This document shows positions 1 through 36,127 of a stretch of DNA of 36,127 nt, in pieces (position 1 is the first letter of the stretch; each line of letters opens with the position of its first letter). The DNA comes from an uncultured Bacteroidota bacterium (lineage in GTDB: Bacteria > Bacteroidota > Bacteroidia > JABEUT01): contig CAIWVW010000041.1 of assembly GCA_903916255.1 (NCBI GenBank), positions 1-36,127 on the forward strand, given 5' to 3'. The position numbers were made by a program, and so were the translations under genes. The notes beneath the pieces are model-generated. The model saw only the letters and a list, made by a program, of their open reading frames with translations. It ran no database searches and was not told where the DNA came from.

Positions 1-75
1 ATGAATAATGAAAAATTTAAAATGAATAATTTAGCGGTTGCTGATTATTTTTCACTTTTCATTTTTAGTTTTTCA
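1..75. repeat. Inverted pair of heptamer tracts
   Basis: Positions 1-35 are five consecutive 7-bp units of ATGAAAA type (ATGAATA, ATGAAAA, ATTTAAA, ATGAATA, ATTTAGC). Positions 48-75 are four 7-bp units of TTTTTCA type. The two tracts are roughly reverse complementary, so the region can form an A/T-rich hairpin with a 12-bp spacer. It lies just downstream of the stop codon of the minus-strand gene at 77. The right tract is almost identical to the tract at 19028-19055. It may serve as a terminator, but the 7-bp phasing suggests a member of a dispersed repeat family. Confidence 0.75.
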
Positions 76-76
76 T

Positions 77-2938
77 TTAATTTGTTTTCACCACTTTTTT
101 CTGGCTAACCAAATTGCCGTTGTTATCTAATATGCGTATTAAATAAATTCCGTTTGGTTGGTCAGATATGTTAATAGTGGATTGTGGCCCGTGAATGCTG
201 GATTCAGTGTAAACTTTTTGTCCAAGCATATTATAAATCTCTACAGTATTACTTTCAACTTTCAACTTTTCACTTTCAACTGTAATTGTAAACTGTCCCG
301 ATGTTGGGTTTGGGTAGATGGTGATGTTATCCAATCCGGCGCAGCAGCCGCTATTGTTTTTATCATCCTTTTCTTTAACCGTTGGCAAATTACATACTAA
401 AGAAGTAATGTAAACAATACTGCAATGGTTTTTATCGGTTACCGTAATGGTATATGTATTTACAGTCAGGTTAGTCAATGTAGCCTTGGTTCCACCTCCC
501 GGCGACCATGCATAGGTGTAAGGGGCAACGCCTCCTTTCACTCCAAGGGTAGCCGTTATATAATTATCATTGCAACTTGAACCTACAATACTATCGCGCA
601 AATCGCCAGGCTGGGTAATTGTCAATGGACAAGCTGAACTGGAGCAACCGTTGGCATCGGTAACTGTTACCGAGTAGATACCTGCACTAAGTCCGGTAGC
701 CGCTGCATTAGTTTGCCCGTTGGTCCAGAGGTAGGTGTATGGTGCCGTACCCAGCTTCACTCCTACTGTTGCGCTTCCGGTTGCAGAACCATTGCACAGC
801 ACATTCACCTTTGAAGACGATACAATGGTGTCGTGTATGGCAACCGGCTGGGTTATGGTTAAGCCCACCGTTGCCGAACAACTGTTTTTATCTTTCACGG
901 TAACGGTATAGCTTCCGGCAGTAAGCTTTGTGCAGCTTGCAGTAGTGCTTAATGCGCCTGTCCATGTGTATGTATAAGGAGTGGTTCCACCGGTAGCCGT
1001 AACAGATGCGCTTCCTTTGCCGCTATGGCAGAATGCTTCGGTTACCGGGCCCGCTAAACTAACAGATAAAACTGCAGGCTGTGTAATAGTAGCCATAGGA
1101 GCCGCATTGGTAGCGCTGCATCCGTTTTTGTCGGTTACCGTAACTGTATATGTTCCGGCTGAAAGCCCGGTAGCAGTTGCCAGGGTGCTTCCGCTGCTCC
1201 AGGAATAACTGTAAGGATATGTTCCCCCTGAGGCGGTGGCTGTGGCTTTGCCGCCATTGCCGCCGTTGCATCCCACTTCAGATACAGAAGAAATACCGGA
1301 ATGAACTCCCGTAGGTTGTGTAATGCTTACGCTTGTGCTGGCCGAACTTCCGCATGAATCATGTACGGTTACCGTATAACTTCCCGCGCTTAAAGTAGCC
1401 GGAGTGGATTGTGCAGTAGCTATTACCGCATGTGCCGCATTGGTCCATGAATAGGTAAATGGCGATGTGCCTCCGGCAGGTGTTGCTGCCGCCTTTCCGT
1501 TAGCCAAACCATTGCAGGTTGCATAATTTACAACACCTGCATGCACAGTAAGCGCAGTAGGTTGCGTGATGGTTGCAGTTGCCGTAACACTGCACGAATT
1601 TGCATCCTGCACAGTTACCGTATAAGTTCCCGCGCTAAGTCCCGTGGCGGTTTCATTGGTTTGCGCATTGTTCCACAAATAAGAATATGGCGGCGTACCC
1701 AACGCAGGGCTTGCAGTTGCACTGCCATTGCTGCCTCCGCGGCAACTTACACCGGTAGTTTCATTGGCAACAGCCTCGAGCGTGCAATACGCAAGATTAT
1801 AATCGAATACTATGCCGTAATTATTTTGTCCTCCGGCATACGTTGTGCCATACAGGTTGTTCGAGGTAAGCAGCAGTTGTTCATAATAAGGGCTGTATCC
1901 ATCCCCGGCCCCAAATTGGAAATCGTGAAGCTTGTTAAATGAAGTACCGCTTGTGCTTACCGAAAAAAGAACACCTTCGCCATCGGCGCCTCCGCCGTTT
2001 GTTACACCATACATGGTGCTGCCGGAAATTACCAATTGGCCCAAGGGATATGAACCGTTGGGGTAGCCGTCAAAATTATAAAGGTCGGTGAAAGAACTTC
2101 CGTTGGTATTCATTGAAAAGATAACACCTTCGCCGGAAGTGCCGCCATTAGCGGTTATTCCCATTAAAACACCTCCGTTATCAGTTAACGAACCTATCGG
2201 ATAAGAGCCATCGGTGGTGCTTCCGGTAAAATCATGAAGGTCGGTAAAACCACTGCCATCATTATTAATTGAAAAAACCATGCCATTGTTATTTGCGCCG
2301 CCGTATTCTGTCATTCCATACAGAACGCTGCCTATAAGGGTTACAGACCCATATGGTAATGCGCCATCGTTTGTTGCCCCGGTAAACTGATGGAGGTCGG
2401 AAAACCCGCTGCCATTTATATTCATCGAAAAAACAATACCGTAATCGGGCGAACCGCCATAGGTTGTCATTCCATACATGGCGCTTCCCGAAATAACCAA
2501 TGTTCCACCGGTAGGGTATCTGCCATCAGAGGCTGCCAGCGAGAAATCATGTATATCGGCAAATGAGCTGCCATCCGTATTTACGGAAAAAATGATGCCC
2601 TCATTATAAAGCCCGCCACCGTGTGCCATGCCATATAATACGCCACCCGAAAGGGTTAATGAACCAATAGGCCCGTCGCCATCAGTGGTTGTGTTTGTAA
2701 AATTATGGATAACCGAATATCCGCTGCCATCCATATTAGATGAATAAATTACGCCAAATCCGGCTGTTCCGCCATCATTGGTCATTCCATATAGTTTGGT
2801 TCCGTCGGTTATTACCGAACCATAAGGATTGGCGCCATCCGTGCCGCTGCCGAAATCATGGATATCTGAAAATTGGGCGTTAACAGTAGTTATTGCTAAT
2901 AACGAAAGGCTAAAAGCAAATAGGTTGAGTTTTTTCAT
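77..2938 (-). CDS. GloVer/SprB-repeat T9SS secreted surface protein
   Basis: The 953-residue product starts with a signal peptide (about residues 1-21, ending VNA-Q). Residues 22 to about 385 hold about seven roughly 50-residue GloVer-type repeats (pattern D-H-F ... G-x-L-x-L-S-G-x-x-L-Y-G-M-T-x-x-G-G ... G-x-I-F-S), expected to form a beta-propeller. Residues about 390-870 hold SprB repeats (G-T-x-P-Y-x-Y-x-W ... L-S-A-G-T-Y-T-V-T-V-x-D). The last ~75 residues are a type A sorting domain (IYPNPTSGQFTI ... YNMLGQKVY ... GIYLIRI ... KKVVK). It is likely exported by the Sec and T9SS routes and displayed on or released from the surface as an adhesin. Ligand unknown. The loop ESEKLKVES in the sorting domain is encoded by a heptamer tract. 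Confidence 0.93.
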   Translation of the reverse strand: MKKLNLFAFSLSLLAITTVNAQFSDIHDFGSGTDGANPYGSVITDGTKLYGMTNDGGTAGFGVIYSSNMDGSGYSVIHNFTNTTTDGDGPIGSLTLSGGVLYGMAHGGGLYNEGIIFSVNTDGSSFADIHDFSLAASDGRYPTGGTLVISGSAMYGMTTYGGSPDYGIVFSMNINGSGFSDLHQFTGATNDGALPYGSVTLIGSVLYGMTEYGGANNNGMVFSINNDGSGFTDLHDFTGSTTDGSYPIGSLTDNGGVLMGITANGGTSGEGVIFSMNTNGSSFTDLYNFDGYPNGSYPLGQLVISGSTMYGVTNGGGADGEGVLFSVSTSGTSFNKLHDFQFGAGDGYSPYYEQLLLTSNNLYGTTYAGGQNNYGIVFDYNLAYCTLEAVANETTGVSCRGGSNGSATASPALGTPPYSYLWNNAQTNETATGLSAGTYTVTVQDANSCSVTATATITQPTALTVHAGVVNYATCNGLANGKAAATPAGGTSPFTYSWTNAAHAVIATAQSTPATLSAGSYTVTVHDSCGSSASTSVSITQPTGVHSGISSVSEVGCNGGNGGKATATASGGTYPYSYSWSSGSTLATATGLSAGTYTVTVTDKNGCSATNAAPMATITQPAVLSVSLAGPVTEAFCHSGKGSASVTATGGTTPYTYTWTGALSTTASCTKLTAGSYTVTVKDKNSCSATVGLTITQPVAIHDTIVSSSKVNVLCNGSATGSATVGVKLGTAPYTYLWTNGQTNAAATGLSAGIYSVTVTDANGCSSSACPLTITQPGDLRDSIVGSSCNDNYITATLGVKGGVAPYTYAWSPGGGTKATLTNLTVNTYTITVTDKNHCSIVYITSLVCNLPTVKEKDDKNNSGCCAGLDNITIYPNPTSGQFTITVESEKLKVESNTVEIYNMLGQKVYTESSIHGPQSTINISDQPNGIYLIRILDNNGNLVSQKKVVKTN
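251..285 (-). repeat. Heptamer tract inside sorting-domain codons
   Basis: Five consecutive 7-bp units of the type ACTTTCA on the plus strand. They encode the ESEKLKVES loop of the first gene's sorting domain. Seven bases times three gives a seven-residue period, so the tract can expand by three units without breaking the frame. Confidence 0.7.
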
Positions 2939-15745: not shown

Positions 15746-15761
15746 CCATGCATTTGAATAC

Positions 15762-15789
15762 TGACCACTGACCACTAACCACTGACAAC
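15762..15789 (+). repeat. Heptamer tract in the thiolase leader
   Basis: Four units (TGACCAC, TGACCAC, TAACCAC, TGACAAC) ending 6 bp before the thiolase ATG, in the 5' untranslated leader. Confidence 0.75.
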
Positions 15790-18026: not shown

Positions 18027-18647
18027 ATGTCCAACATTAATCCTAACGCATCTAAAGAAATAGACCGGGCCTTTGAAGAATTCACGGGCTTTCAAAAGAA
18101 ATTTTGTATGCACTTGCGCACCCTTATCCACGAGGCGTTGCCCGATGTGAAAGAAGACTGGAAATGGGGCCCTAACTTCAACGTAAATGGGATGGTTTGC
18201 GGCGTGTGGGGCTTCAAAAAGCATGTTAAGCTGGTGTTTTTTAAAGGCAGTCTGATGGAGGACCCTTACGCCCTCTTCAACGATGGCGACGATAATACCG
18301 GAAACCGAAGCATTAACTTTTTTGAAACATCGGTGATAGATGACGCAAAAGTGTCCGAATACTTGAAAGAGGCCGCAGAATTGAACAAGCAGGGCGTAAA
18401 ACCGGAAAAGAAAAAGGTGCCTGTAGATGTTCCGGAAGAGCTGATGCGCGCGCTCAATAAACACAGCGGGCTTAAAATGTATTTTGAAAAGATGGCTCCT
18501 TCGCACAAGCGCGAATATGCTGAATATATTGCCGATGCCGTGCAGGTTGAAACGAAAGAACGCCGCGTTAAAAAAGTGATAGAGATGATTACGGAAAACA
18601 GGAAAATGAAAGAGAAAAACGAAATCAAGAACAGACATCGTAAATGA
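18027..18647 (+). CDS. YdeI/OmdA-like DUF1801 protein
   Basis: A 206-residue protein. The N-terminal part is a DUF1801 domain (about 20-125: LRTLIHEALPDVKEDWKWGPNFNVNGMVCGVWGFKKHVKLVFFKG). The C-terminal part is the OmdA/YdeI-associated domain (about 135-205: VPVDVPEELMRALNKHSGLKMYFEKMAPSHKREYAEYIADAVQVETKERRVKKVIEMI). Family members are small cytosolic proteins, some linked to bacteriocin or stress tolerance; biochemical role not established. Its TGA stop lies inside the first unit of a heptamer tract, so the last codons were probably rewritten by that insertion. Confidence 0.9.
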   Translation: MSNINPNASKEIDRAFEEFTGFQKKFCMHLRTLIHEALPDVKEDWKWGPNFNVNGMVCGVWGFKKHVKLVFFKGSLMEDPYALFNDGDDNTGNRSINFFETSVIDDAKVSEYLKEAAELNKQGVKPEKKKVPVDVPEELMRALNKHSGLKMYFEKMAPSHKREYAEYIADAVQVETKERRVKKVIEMITENRKMKEKNEIKNRHRK

Positions 18648-18676
18648 AAAATGAAAAACGAAAAATGAAAAATGAG
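18642..18676 (+). repeat. Left heptamer tract of the four-helix-bundle cassette
   Basis: Five consecutive units of AAATGAA type (the third is AAACGAA, the last AAATGAG). It holds the stop codon of the upstream gene (18645-18647) and the ATG of the next (18672-18674). It is the reverse complement type of the tract at 19028-19055. Confidence 0.85.
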
Positions 18677-19022
18677 CGAAAACCCTTTAAAAACTAAAAG
18701 TTATACGTTTGCAATTAGAATAATAAATCTTTACAAGTTTTTAACTTCCGAAAAAAAGGAATTTGTAATGAGTAAACAGGTTTTGCGCTCAGGTACCGGA
18801 ATCGGAGCATTAATCTGTGAGGCCGAATTCGGACAAAGTAAGGCAGATTTCAGATCGAAAATGAGCATGGCGCTAAAAGAGGCAAATGAAACTATTTATT
18901 GGTTGTCATTACTCAAAGATACAGACTATATTGACTTGAAAATGTATGAGAGTTTAGTTAAAGACGCCAGGGAACTAACAGCAATGTTGGTTGCTACTGT
19001 TAAAACCACTAAACCTTTATGA
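18672..19022 (+). CDS. S23-type four-helix-bundle protein
   Basis: A 116-residue protein of the S23/four-helix-bundle family (TIGR02436-like), with FAIRIINLYKFLTSEKKEFVMSKQVLRSGTGIGALICEAEFGQSKADFRSKMSMALKEANETIYWLSLL as the family core (about 13-80). Relatives are encoded in 23S rRNA intervening sequences and resemble the Avd accessory protein of diversity-generating retroelements. Stand-alone copies are frequent in Bacteroidota and have no assigned function. Here the gene lies between inverted heptamer tracts that overlap its start and follow its stop by 5 bp, as if the gene were the cargo of a small mobile cassette. No reverse transcriptase or rRNA gene is nearby. Confidence 0.93.
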   Translation: MSENPLKTKSYTFAIRIINLYKFLTSEKKEFVMSKQVLRSGTGIGALICEAEFGQSKADFRSKMSMALKEANETIYWLSLLKDTDYIDLKMYESLVKDARELTAMLVATVKTTKPL

Positions 19023-19027
19023 ATTCA

Positions 19028-19055
19028 TTTTTCACTTTTCATTTTTAATTTTTCA
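19028..19055 (-). repeat. Right heptamer tract of the four-helix-bundle cassette
   Basis: Four units (TTTTTCA, CTTTTCA, TTTTTAA, TTTTTCA), inverted with respect to 18642-18676. It differs by one base from the tract at 48-75. It ends 5 bp before the ATG of the PaaY-like gene. Confidence 0.85.
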
Positions 19056-19060
19056 TTTAT

Positions 19061-19657
19061 ATGATTTACGAATTTAATGGATATAAACCGGTCGTGCACA
19101 AATCGAGTTTTGTGCATCCGCAGGCAAGCGTTACAGGCAATGTAATTATCGGCAAAGATGTATATATAGGCCCCGGTGCAGCCATCCGCGGCGACTTTGG
19201 CGAAATCATCATTAAAGACGGTTGCAATGTGCAGGAAAACTGCACCATACACATGTTTCCGGGTGTAACGGTAATACTGGAAGAGAATGCCCACATTGGC
19301 CATGGCGCCATTATACATGGTGCGCATATCGGCAAAGACGTGCTCGTGGGTATGAATGCCGTAATTATGGACCGCGCCGATGTAGGCGAAGGCAGCATTA
19401 TAGGCTCGCTGTGCTTTGTGCCCGAGGATATGGTTATCCCACAGGGGATGCTGGCGGTAGGCATTCCCGCCAAAATAATTAAAGAAGTAAGCGCAGAAAT
19501 GAAAGGCTGGAAAAAACTCGGCACCGAAATATATCAACGCCTGCCCAAAGAACTCCAAAACACATTGAAAGAATGCGAACCGCTAAGGTCGGTGCCTAAA
19601 TTCAGGAGGAAACAAACGAATTATTATAAGACCTGGAAGCAGGAGAAGGGGGAGTAA
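19061..19657 (+). CDS. paaY: PaaY-like hexapeptide-repeat (gamma-carbonic-anhydrase fold) protein
   Basis: A 198-residue left-handed beta-helix protein. Hexapeptide turns run from about 18 to 150 (VTGNVIIGKDVYIGPGAAIRGDFG ...). Metal-ligand-type histidines occur in NCTIHMF, AHIGHGAIIHG. The C-terminus (WKKLGTEIYQRLPKELQ ... CEPLRSVPKFRRKQ) matches PaaY, the thioesterase-like protein that removes dead-end CoA esters in phenylacetate degradation. Carbonic-anhydrase or acyltransferase activity are alternatives within the fold. With the thiolase at 15796 it suggests aromatic-acid catabolism in this region, though the core paa genes are not in the window. Confidence 0.87.
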   Translation: MIYEFNGYKPVVHKSSFVHPQASVTGNVIIGKDVYIGPGAAIRGDFGEIIIKDGCNVQENCTIHMFPGVTVILEENAHIGHGAIIHGAHIGKDVLVGMNAVIMDRADVGEGSIIGSLCFVPEDMVIPQGMLAVGIPAKIIKEVSAEMKGWKKLGTEIYQRLPKELQNTLKECEPLRSVPKFRRKQTNYYKTWKQEKGE

Positions 19658-30533: not shown

Positions 30534-30538
30534 TGTTA

Positions 30539-30636
30539 TAATTAGTAATTAGTAATTAATAATTAGTAATTAAGAACAGAATACTATTCAAACTAGACCC
30601 TTTCAATTGCTAATTACTAATTATTAATTACTAATT
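30539..30636. repeat. Inverted heptamer tracts with 35-bp spacer
   Basis: 30539-30573 is five units of TAATTAG type and 30609-30636 is four units of CTAATTA type (in phase GCTAATT/ACTAATT), exact reverse complements apart from two changes. A 35-bp unrelated spacer lies between. It can fold into one long A/T hairpin. It separates rdgB from the upstream minus-strand gene and could terminate or pause transcription. Confidence 0.88.
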
Positions 30637-30638
30637 AT

Positions 30639-31322
30639 TTATGCAAAGTCTTCTTCCTGCTGTTCGGCGCTTTCGTCCTCATCGTCCACCATTTCCGCAT
30701 CTTCCACCGAAGCATCTTCTTCGGTTTCTTCATCCGGAGTTTCCAATGCCACTTCTTTCACTATACGGCGTGGAATTACTTCATCCTCTTCTTCTGCAAC
30801 ATCAAATTCGTGCGCTGCTTCAGGATGCACATATGTGTCTTCAGCATCATCGACAATAGCAGCTTCAATTTCTTCTTCTTCCACCACCGGGATATCGGCA
30901 GGCGAAGTAACTTTATATTGGGCAGGAGCAGCACCTACGCTTTTATTTATGCGCGGATAGGTTACAGATGCTTCCGGAATAATTTTCATCAGCTCGATTT
31001 GTAATACCCAATTGGCGCCTTCAGGGTCAAACTCATAAATAAATTTTTGGTGCGGGTCCTCCATAAATGCGGCCAGTTTTGTTTCGTGCATCCAGGTGCC
31101 TTTCAGCCCGGCGCTATGGTTTTTGTGCAGCAATATTATTTCCTTGCCTTTGCGCCAGGTATCGTTACTTACAAAAAAAGAAGTTGGATGCGCACCATCG
31201 AAACCGATGGCAGTTTGGATTATTTTATGAAAATCCTCGAAAGTCTGGGTCGACCTTATTTCTATTTCACGAATAACGCTTTCGTCGTCTTCAAAGTACA
31301 CTTTAAATCTATATACAGCCAT
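30639..31322 (-). CDS. Plasmid pRiA4b ORF-3-family protein with acidic tail
   Basis: A 227-residue protein. The N-terminal ~125 residues match the pRiA4b ORF-3 fold (VYRFKVYFEDDESVIREIEIRSTQTFEDFHKIIQTAIGFDGAHPTSFFVSNDTWRKGKEI; KFIYEFDPEGANWVLQIELMKI). The last ~90 residues are a highly acidic, disordered tail (runs of Glu and Asp). The family has no established function. A -7 box TAGTTTTG is at 31375-31382 on the minus strand. The stop codon lies just at the heptamer tract boundary. Confidence 0.9.
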   Translation of the reverse strand: MAVYRFKVYFEDDESVIREIEIRSTQTFEDFHKIIQTAIGFDGAHPTSFFVSNDTWRKGKEIILLHKNHSAGLKGTWMHETKLAAFMEDPHQKFIYEFDPEGANWVLQIELMKIIPEASVTYPRINKSVGAAPAQYKVTSPADIPVVEEEEIEAAIVDDAEDTYVHPEAAHEFDVAEEEDEVIPRRIVKEVALETPDEETEEDASVEDAEMVDDEDESAEQQEEDFA

Positions 31323-32805: not shown

Positions 32806-33195
32806 ATGACACCAACCGAATACATCTCTGCTCAATCTCCCGAAAGACAAGCGCTGCTGAAATCCATACACGCGCTTATTTTAAAATTAAACAAAAAGAT
32901 AACTGCGGAGGTAGCTCCGATGATGGGCACTGAAATGATACAATATAAAATAAATACGTATTTTGCTTATGCGCTTGGTTCCGGAAAAGCCCATATAACC
33001 CTGCATGCATTGCCCATGTATATGCATAAACCGATACACGAAAAATTCTCCAAATTATTTAAAAAGGCGAAATTCCAAAAGGGCTGTATCAATTTTAAAA
33101 ATGCCGATGAAATGCCGTTGGATATGGCTGAACAATTCCTTACCGATTGCTCAAAGGTTGACTTGGTAGCAATAATGAAAAAATACGGGAAATAA
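32806..33195 (+). CDS. DUF1801-domain protein
   Basis: Preferred start ATG 32806 (MTPTEYISAQSPERQ) gives 129 residues. Earlier in-frame starts (TTG 32701, ATG 32776) lie inside the palindrome. The sequence is a single DUF1801 domain (LKSIHALILKLNKKITAEVAPMMGTEMIQYKI..YFAYALGSGKAHITLHALPMYM ... LFKKAKFQKGCINFKNADEMPLDMAEQFLTDC). Relatives include iron-chaperone-like and YdhG/YjdI-like proteins; activity unknown. It ends 9 bp before the next gene, suggesting co-transcription. Confidence 0.88.
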   Translation: MTPTEYISAQSPERQALLKSIHALILKLNKKITAEVAPMMGTEMIQYKINTYFAYALGSGKAHITLHALPMYMHKPIHEKFSKLFKKAKFQKGCINFKNADEMPLDMAEQFLTDCSKVDLVAIMKKYGK

Positions 33196-33221
33196 CTATG
33201 AACAATGAACTATAAACTATT
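33194..33221 (+). repeat. Heptamer tract over a start codon
   Basis: Four units (AACTATG, AACAATG, AACTATA, AACTATT). The ATG of the lipoprotein gene (33205-33207) is the end of the second unit, so start and first codons are written by the repeat. Confidence 0.65.
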
Positions 33222-34049: not shown

Positions 34050-34145
<96 letters not shown>

Positions 34146-34150
<5 letters not shown>

Positions 34151-36127
34151 TCTTGCGCATCACCACCAGTTTCTTCACCGTTATGCTGTTATTGGTTTGC
34201 ATACGCAAAGAATAAATGCCGGAAGCAAGATTTTCCAAATTGATTTGCTCGCTGTTCGAACCGCTGTTCATGTATTTATTTTCAGAATAAACAACTTGCC
34301 CGAGTTCATTAATAACGCTTATGCACCCAACTGAAGACTGACCACTAACCACTGACCACTGCACTGTAATAGAGCCATTGCTTGGATTCGGGAAAATATT
34401 CAGGTGTATATTCTCATCCGAAACAGGTTGAACGGCTGTTTCGGTTTTTACAGAGCCATTGGAGAATGAGCCTGAAAGCATGTGTACAGAAGCGCTGTGC
34501 TGGCGTATGCTTGCTGTTGGTATGCAAGTGCTGGAAGGGTTTACAGCCTCTACCACATATAGGGAACCTCCGGGAGGCAAGGTATCGTGATAGGTAAGCA
34601 CTGTGTTTGGAACGGAATCAATCTGCACCAGGCTTGTTAATGAAGGCCCGCGGAAGATGCGGTATTTCGAAGGCGCGAATCCTACATAAGGCGTCCAGTT
34701 TAAAATATTCACATTTACACCCGCAGTAACAGTAAGGTAAATGGTAGTGTTCACCGCGCTCAAAGCCGATTCGCCGCAACTGTCGTCTGTAGCTAATTTA
34801 TAACTTACAGGGCCAAGGGAAGGGGTGGCGCTCGTGTCTATATATTCGCTTAACACATTTAACGGCTGGTTTTCTATCGGCACAAATACCGAAGAGGCGT
34901 TTTCCTTATACACAATGTAAGAACCATATCCGCCTTGCGGAGGAGAGTTGGTCCTTCCCCAAATTACCATCGCCTTGCCGTTTAGTGTATCTACCGTAAC
35001 TATGCAAATTGGTTCATTAAAATTATTCGTGCAGTTTGCTACATACACCGTAACCGAATCGGTAAGCACTCCACACGTATCAGTTGCCGTGAGGGTGTAT
35101 GTAGTTGTTACCGTTGGAGAAGCCATCGGGTTGGCACAGGTGGTGCAGCTCAAGCCTGTTGCAGGTGCCCACAAATAGGTAGCCGCCACAGGTATGGAAG
35201 AAGACAAATAACTGCTGTCGCCCATTGTTATGGTGGCAGGGAATGCAGAAACAGTAAGCGATACAGCGGCAGAAGAAACTCCCACAGAAGCTGTTGCGCT
35301 GCAGCCTGTATTGTCATGCACAATTACGGAATAGGTTCCCGGAGTTAATCCGGTGATGGTGGCTGTTGTTTGCCCACCGGGGTTCCATAAGTAGGTGTAT
35401 GGGGGCGTTCCGCCGGATGGCGTTACGGTTGCTGTTCCGTCATACGAAGAAGTGCAACTGTAATACGAAGGCGTACTGCTCATGGCCAGCGGGAAACATT
35501 GAATGTTAATATCCACCGTATCTGTATAGGTTCCGCAAGGCGTAGTTATAGTAACCGTATAAACTGTATTGGTAGCGGGATGCGCATATGTACTCGATGA
35601 TGTTGGATTTGTTACAGATGCCGAAGGCGCCCATGAATACACAGCGGAAACATTGCAGGTTGCGGTGAGCAAAGTGCTGTCGCCGGCGGTAATGTATAAT
35701 GGATTTCCTGTTGCGGAATAAACAACAGAATCACTGCCAATGTTTGCCGAACTTGTTACGCTGCATCCCGCAGAGTCGGTTACCGTCACCGTATATATTC
35801 CGGCGGATAAACCGGAAACACTTGCTGTTGTTTCACCTCCGGGAGTCCATAAATAGGTATACGGAGGTATGCCCAGCGTGGCTGTCGCCATGGATGTTCC
35901 GCTCAATGATGAGCAATAACTGGATGTGGAAGTAGTGGTAACGCTGAAACAATTTACAGTTACCAATACGGAATCGGTAAATGTGCCGCAAGCGGTAGTA
36001 ATGGTTACCGTATATTCGGTGGTTACAGGCGGAGCCGCATAGCTACTTGCCGAATTAGGATTCGTTACATTAGCCGCAGGAGCCCATGAATACGTGGCAG
36101 GAGCCGTACAAGTACTACTAAGGTAGG
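34146..36127 (-). CDS. SprB-repeat T9SS surface protein (5' end beyond window)
   Basis: The reading frame is open to the window edge, so the start lies beyond 36127; the TTG at 35966 is internal. At least 660 residues: SprB-type repeats (GIPPYTYLWTPGG..LSAGIYTVTVTDSAGCSVT, twice), Ig/PKD-like repeats (SASVTNPTSSSTYAHPATNTVYTVTI), a fibronectin-III-like middle part (KAMVIWGRTNSPPQGGYGSYIVYKE and following) and a type A sorting domain (IFPNPSNGSITV ... VINELGQVVYSE ... GIYSLRMQ ... KKLVV). Secreted, likely adhesive. The loop SVVSGQSSV is written by a heptamer tract at 34332-34359. Confidence 0.92.
34332..34359 (-). repeat. Heptamer tract inside sorting domain
   Basis: Four units (TGAAGAC, TGACCAC, TAACCAC, TGACCAC) on the plus strand, encoding the SVVSGQSSV loop. 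Same type as at 5189, 10527 and 15762. Confidence 0.72.

Follow-up and report, generated by a model that had tools for sequence, protein, structure and literature searches.

Genes for S23 proteins (also called IVP, or "four helix bundle protein") are abundant, and we know of no function that has been assigned to them since the rRNA intervening sequences (IVS) were discovered. The locus considered here raises the question of whether such a gene, when it lies between inverted tracts of 7-bp period, forms a mobile cassette together with those tracts, as the original prediction had suggested. The locus lies in a contig of 36,127 nucleotides from an uncultured Bacteroidota bacterium, the whole of which is referred to below as the window. 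From the data S23 gains a consistent natural context and a role that can be tested. The cassettes probably constitute a mobile family that resembles the REPIN/RAYT system; in this family S23 would recognize and mobilize its own heptamer ends, and the rRNA IVS would be a special case of it.

Architecture of the Window Cassette

Arrays of period 7 are detected by TRF at 18642–18675 (4.9 copies of AAATGAA) and, as the inverse, at 19024–19058; direct reading of the left array gives five units, with a single C among them and a G at the end. The upstream open reading frame (ORF) terminates in the first of these units and the S23 ATG lies within the fifth. The S23 stop codon occupies 19020–19022, the four units of the right arm begin 5 bp beyond it (19028–19055), and a further 5 bp separate the end of that arm from the next ATG. 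The predicted arrangement, with the stop of the previous gene inside the left tract and the right tract ending 5 bp short of the next gene, thus holds to the base. The inverted-repeat score of the two arms is 27.5. Coordinates are collected in the table.

Features of the S23 cassette and of gene-less doublets in the window
Feature	Coordinates	Strand	Remarks
Left arm	18641..18676	+	Five units of about AAATGAA, C-poor strand; the upstream gene ends and S23 starts within it
S23 four-helix-bundle gene, 116 aa	18672..19022	+	PF05635, TIGR02436; relative of PDB 2rld
Right arm	19027..19060	+	Four units of TTTTTCA type on the G-poor strand, inverted relative to the left arm
Upstream flanking gene, DUF1801/OmdA family	18027..18647	+	Stop inside the left arm
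Downstream flanking gene, PaaY/gamma-carbonic-anhydrase-like hexapeptide protein	19061..19657	+	
Inverted doublet without S23, AAATGAA arm type as in the window cassette	1..79		At contig end
Inverted doublet without S23, AATTAGT type	30534..30645		Type of the S23 cassette on contig C79

The encoded protein matches PF05635 (E = 8e-25, 87.5 bits against a curated cut-off of 33.8), which is its sole match in Pfam, and TIGR02436 (4.5e-28, 97.6 bits against a curated cut-off of 24); its similarity to the solved relative 2rld reaches E = 5e-39. No nuclease or transposase domain was recognized in S23 by the Pfam profile search, and a blastn search of phages with the window cassette gave no matches.

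The tract pair had also been described as recurring without a gene near position 1. This is accurate for the right arm, which recurs at 47–79 with one mismatch, and less so for the left half of the 1–79 pair, which is a poorer match. The pair has two close copies on contig C122 (25–57 and 3839–3871). All three are part of a near-duplicate sequence that is longer than the doublet and lies at the 3′ ends of genes, and so do not represent three independent events. The window contig terminates within this twice-recurring doublet, and repeats of this kind probably broke the assembly there.

Other period-7 sequences are present in the window. A long array of 13.7 units (ACTTTAT/ACTTTCT) lies close to a gene end at 34051–34146, and its ACTTTCT type is also found at an S23 cassette on contig C131 (L004). 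Shorter tracts (ACTTTCA, ACTGACC, AACTATG) occur at 251–281, 15760–15786, 33194–33220, and 34337–34361, and some of them are like the arm types of S23 genes in other genomes of the genus.

Inverted Arms at Other S23 Genes

The genome to which the window belongs (G000; 3.74 Mb in 149 contigs) holds ten genes above the PF05635 cut-off. The flanks of all ten have inverted-repeat scores between 16.5 and 28.5, and only 5 of 333 other ORFs score at least 16. The heptamers differ by locus (GTGGTTA, AATTAGT, AAAGTAG, AAATTAG, AGCTATA, GTTATGA, AAATGAA, and others). The cassettes are placed between conserved housekeeping genes, at junctions that we take, by eye from the sequences, to be accB/accC, ffh/folD, paaA/paaB, and sufE/sufT. 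An S23 match on contig C34 (L009:5001–5312) has two in-frame TAG codons and weaker arms, and is possibly a decaying copy.

With a threshold score of 14, inverted arms are found at 68 of 88 Bacteroidia S23 genes. Other ORFs and arms swapped between loci served as controls: of the arms paired between loci 2.2% score this high, as do 2.9% of such pairs drawn from one genome and 6 of 333 other ORFs. The best period among 69 aligned Bacteroidia loci is 7 in 60 cases and 8 in seven, and the median arm has 31 bases. One S23 clade (L086, L089, L095, L098) has units of 8 bp (ATTTGATA), and a Muribaculaceae locus (L257) has units of 9 bp; unit length may therefore follow the S23 clade.

The arms are not confined to Bacteroidia. 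Scanning 84,980 species genomes gave a set of 80 S23 loci that span many phyla, and 59 of these have inverted arms (mismatched pairs, 1.6%; neighboring ORFs, 4/102); outside Bacteroidota the count is 41 of 53. The armed loci include those of cultured isolates (Thiohalocapsa, Rhodopseudomonas, Pontibacter), a planctomycete with arms of about 160 bp, two CPR genomes, and a Methanophagales archaeon; many of the genomes compared are metagenome assemblies. Heptamer arms also enclose all seven plasmid S23 loci examined, four of them cyanobacterial (three Nostoc, one Euhalothece) and the others from Treponema, Bernardetia, and one further Nostoc record. On two Nostoc plasmids (L397 and L403), XisH/XisI genes adjoin the S23 cassettes. 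Clear arms are absent, at the chosen threshold, from 20 of the 88 Bacteroidia and 21 of the 80 cross-phylum genes. The expectation that 7-bp periodicity and inverted complementarity would mark the flanks of other S23 genes, and not those of genes in general, is borne out by these counts.

Arms Follow the S23 Protein

Among pairs of loci from different genomes that are not flagged as orthologous, arm similarity correlates with S23 identity (r = 0.42; permutation maximum, 0.10), a correlation for part of which unrecognized orthology could account. Strongly similar arms occur in 62% of the non-orthologous pairs in the highest identity band and in none below 45% identity. For example, S23 proteins that are related to one another have AATTACG arms in G004, G008, and G009, and also in G012, which belongs to a different family. 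At the orthologous sufE/sufT site both arms differ between species, yet they match each other.

Because the heptamer follows the S23 phylogeny at non-orthologous sites, the arms and the gene travel together. The arm sequence would then be part of the element, since close S23 relatives share a heptamer at unrelated sites in different species, and each S23 probably recognizes its own heptamer array.

Empty and Variant Sites in Relatives

The site of the window cassette is empty in G007, where the flanking genes are joined directly and the upstream stop overlaps the downstream ATG. The same site holds a solo heptamer tract in G001, a gene-less inverted pair in G008, and a longer spacer without S23 in G002. 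Orthologs of the downstream PaaY-like gene are present in six congeners, and S23 precedes none of them. G002 and G003 have nothing inserted between paaA and paaB, seven congeners lack S23 at the pckA junction, and the sufE–sufT junction carries S23, a solo arm, or nothing, depending on the species. Presence and absence among relatives, as anticipated, is thus seen at the window site and at others.

No transposition event or circle was seen, and target-site duplications are unreadable at the empty sites because the relatives have diverged and because the arm resembles a stop/start junction. For this reason the mobility claimed for the cassette is read from the patterns of dispersal, which support it together with the empty sites.

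Dispersal of Gene-less Arms

In sampled stretches of the window's own genome totaling 710 kb, on which its tract densities are based, there are 87 lag-7 tracts, and no other lag between 4 and 12 yields more than 22. Inverted tract pairs have two main sizes, with either a spacer of about 3–90 bp and no gene or about 340–420 bp and an S23 gene; apart from the short spacers, S23 is the only content found between paired arms in this genome. Most tracts lie outside genes (57 of 78 are intergenic or at a gene edge, while ORF coverage is 88%), and the polarity of doublets is that of cassettes in nine of ten. One gene-less doublet (L393:1501–1533) lies directly 5′ of the start ATGGCTAAAGAAGTATC, which from its resemblance we take to belong to ribosomal protein L11 (rplK) in a core ribosomal operon.

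Copies of particular arms are concentrated in genomes that carry S23. An AATTAGG arm of G002 (AATTAGGAATTAAAAATTAGGAATTAGGAAT), whose second unit is imperfect, has 17 copies in G002 (5 exact), 2 in the window's genome, and none in G006, a congener without S23. The GTTATAA arm has 36, 20, and 0 copies in the same three genomes, many of them as inverted doublets 47–58 bp apart with variable spacers; reversed-pattern controls for both searches gave zero. The AATTACG arm is present in 10–17 copies in three congeners that hold the corresponding S23 and is absent from six of eight others, the exceptions being G005 (9 copies; 52% complete, no S23 found) and G002 (5 copies). With up to three mismatches allowed, the window arms occur at nine places in their own genome, both arms included, versus 0–2 in ten congeners.

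Imperfect arrays recur exactly at unrelated sites (31/31 and 33/33 bases); the 33-base imperfect array of the window left arm has such a copy (33/33) in a doublet without S23 at G000:C139:4635–4667. Exact copies of this kind demonstrate copying rather than independent slippage. It might be supposed that replication slippage at gene junctions generates the tracts and that inverted pairs around S23 are a coincidence in tract-rich genomes; tracts are indeed common in the window's genome, and the number of units varies, as it does among Coxiella strains. When arms are swapped between S23 loci within one genome, however, they match so seldom, and imperfect arrays recur so exactly, that we reject this explanation and attach almost no probability to it. 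The absence of tracts from the 86 kb sampled of S23-less G006 also speaks against it.

The relation of tracts to S23 extends across genomes. Two tracts were found in about 548 kb from 12 genomes without S23, versus about 125 in about 1.1 Mb from 12 genomes with S23 (rho = 0.68, p = 3e-4). Samples of 30–40 kb from the S23-rich genomes G033 and G058 contained none. Tract density also correlates, more weakly, with counts of Y1_Tnp genes (rho = 0.47). This second correlation would suit an explanation in which the tracts make up a dispersed repeat class of their own, with host processes or a different transposase moving them, and in which S23 settled as a passenger in one doublet and moves along with it. 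That cassettes are fewer than gene-less doublets, and that S23 is without a known catalytic domain, would likewise be accounted for. We nevertheless consider this quite unlikely. A passenger would not be expected to be the only gene between paired arms in its genome, to be tracked by arm type from clade to clade, or to be associated with arms in many phyla, in CPR bacteria, and in an archaeon. Moreover, other repeats flank the Y1_Tnp genes that were inspected, and G019, with 12 S23 genes and tracts, has no Y1_Tnp. On these last two grounds Y1_Tnp (RAYT) is rejected as the owner of the heptamers; a helper role lies outside this rejection.

The Y1_Tnp (IS200-like) genes at L037:13681–14022, L021:7566–7907, and L195:11994–12338 are flanked by repeats of their own, of AATAAGGT type and GGAGC/GCTCC type, which make up a second, distinct repeat system.

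Selection, Orientation, and Predicted RNA Structure

S23 is under strong purifying selection, with dN/dS values of 0.04–0.14 for S23 pairs from the rest of the genus. Residues Q36, R39, E50, and E73 (window numbering) are 92–99% conserved in 166 S23 sequences. The gene is co-directional with its upstream neighbor at 142 of 148 loci and with both neighbors at 126 of 148, whereas the small ORFs in the window's genome give 53 of 123; in many loci the S23 ATG lies at the edge of the arm. In the predicted RNA the arms pair with each other and enclose the S23 ORF (MFE −97.9, z −3.9).

These features raise the alternative of a system that acts at the level of RNA, in which the arms would form a long double-stranded stem around the S23 ORF in a polycistronic mRNA, RNase III would excise it as it does the rRNA IVS, S23 would act as a translational regulator by binding to heptamer tracts of mRNAs, and the dispersed tracts would be its regulon. 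The predicted pairing, the insertion at stop/start junctions, and the shared orientation with the upstream gene are all consistent with such a system. Precedents exist in the rRNA IVS, whose stems are cleaved by RNase III (PMC4990558), and in the TAACTGA repeats of Beggiatoaceae, which lie upstream of start codons and have been interpreted as translational sites (PMC4679880). Mismatches between the arms, however, show no excess of the G·U-compatible kind on the sense strand (45 versus 75 of A·C type), and selection for sense-strand pairing through G·U tolerance is rejected on that count. A regulon would also leave unexplained the empty sites, the exact recurrence of imperfect arrays in new positions, and gain and loss between sister species. 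As the explanation of these loci an RNA-level system seems unlikely to us, but it is compatible with mobility, and the two are not mutually exclusive.

Proposed Mechanism

In the mobile family that we favor, one S23 gene and an inverted arm on either side of it would make up the element, and each arm would have about 4–6 copies of a unit of about 7 bp. Insertion would occur mostly at stop/start junctions between co-directional genes, so that S23 would be co-transcribed. The S23 pentamer would recognize its own arm type and promote copying of the arms with the gene, as a cassette; acting in trans, it would also spread arms without the gene, as inverted doublets (hairpins) and solo arms. This trans dispersal is modeled on the RAYT transposases, which are thought to act in this way for REPINs. 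We do not adopt a fixed number of five units, one for each subunit of the pentamer: arms usually have 4–6 units, and some have many more. The copying chemistry may be borrowed from host replication or from another enzyme. We infer a role for S23 in binding the arms and driving their copying, and propose it because the observed pattern is that of REPINs and RAYTs. The S23-encoding rRNA IVS would be an element of the same kind that landed in 23S rRNA.

A broader claim can be put forward more tentatively. S23 may be the mobilizer of an unrecognized class of transposable elements, present in bacteria and archaea, that does without DDE, HUH, serine, tyrosine, and reverse-transcriptase proteins. The ends of such elements would be heptamer arrays that change freely, with the specificity of S23 following, and their products would include the rRNA IVS and the dispersed heptamers of cyanobacteria and other organisms. 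We regard this as possible, though somewhat doubtful. The pairing of each S23 with its own heptamer array would in itself unite the rRNA IVS, the heptamers of cyanobacteria and Beggiatoaceae, and the heptamer-rich gene junctions of Bacteroidota; it is a pairing of protein and repeat that evolves quickly and is open to experiment.

Comparison with Known Systems

One close precedent is the rRNA IVS of Coxiella burnetii, of about 430 bp, in which an S23 ORF is looped in a stem of terminal inverted repeats of about 28 bp and is directly preceded by tandem GACAGAT heptamers in strain-variable number (PMC4990558). According to the same source, mobility of the IVS with involvement of the ORF was proposed earlier (Ralph and McClelland 1993), and solved S23 relatives are toroidal pentamers (Lin et al. 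2006). The original prediction had considered a stand-alone cassette of this kind undescribed. Searches of the open-licence literature gave no earlier description of S23 cassettes with heptamer-array ends, but heptamers before the S23 ORF had been reported for Coxiella and not generalized (PMC4990558). The rRNA IVS is like the window cassette in that terminal inverted repeats enclose the S23 ORF. It is cut out by RNase III with no religation. It sits in 16S/23S rRNA genes, whereas the cassettes described here are intercistronic: the S23 loci scanned with Rfam gave no rRNA match, and the window cassette lies between DUF1801/OmdA and PaaY-like genes. The cassettes differ further in the free variation of their arms, which track the S23 clade, and in the dispersal of gene-less arm copies.

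Heterocystous cyanobacteria carry STRRs, which are dispersed intergenic tandem repeats of heptamers. Like the S23 arms, the STRRs and the TAACTGA repeats of Beggiatoaceae (PMC4679880) are dispersed intergenic arrays of direct heptamers. The STRR and TAACTGA reports are not known to connect the repeats with S23 or with inverted pairs as element ends. TAACTGA itself occurs within one S23 arm in G002 (L078), and heptamer arrays of this kind enclose the S23 genes on Nostoc plasmids.

The Avd accessory proteins of diversity-generating retroelements have a related S23/IVP fold. Those retroelements possess a reverse transcriptase, whereas RVT_1 has no matches in the window's genome or in G002, and a basis in reverse transcription is rejected for these two genomes. 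Classical insertion sequences have a transposase gene and a target-site duplication; S23 is without a recognized transposase domain, and at the empty sites divergence and likeness to the arm obscure any duplication.

There is also a likeness to REPINs and RAYTs (PMC3116915), with which the S23 arms share the extragenic position of short repeats, hairpin-forming inverted doublets, singlets, and the presence of several types per genome. A repeat type specific to its associated gene is found here too, with the exceptions noted in G002 and G005. The RAYT protein is an HUH Y1 transposase, whereas S23 is a four-helix bundle that gives no Y1 match. REPINs are built from palindromic REPs with a short tag such as GTAG, whereas S23 arms are direct arrays of heptamers. 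Unlike the arrangement in the REPIN/RAYT system, the S23 gene lies inside the inverted pair.
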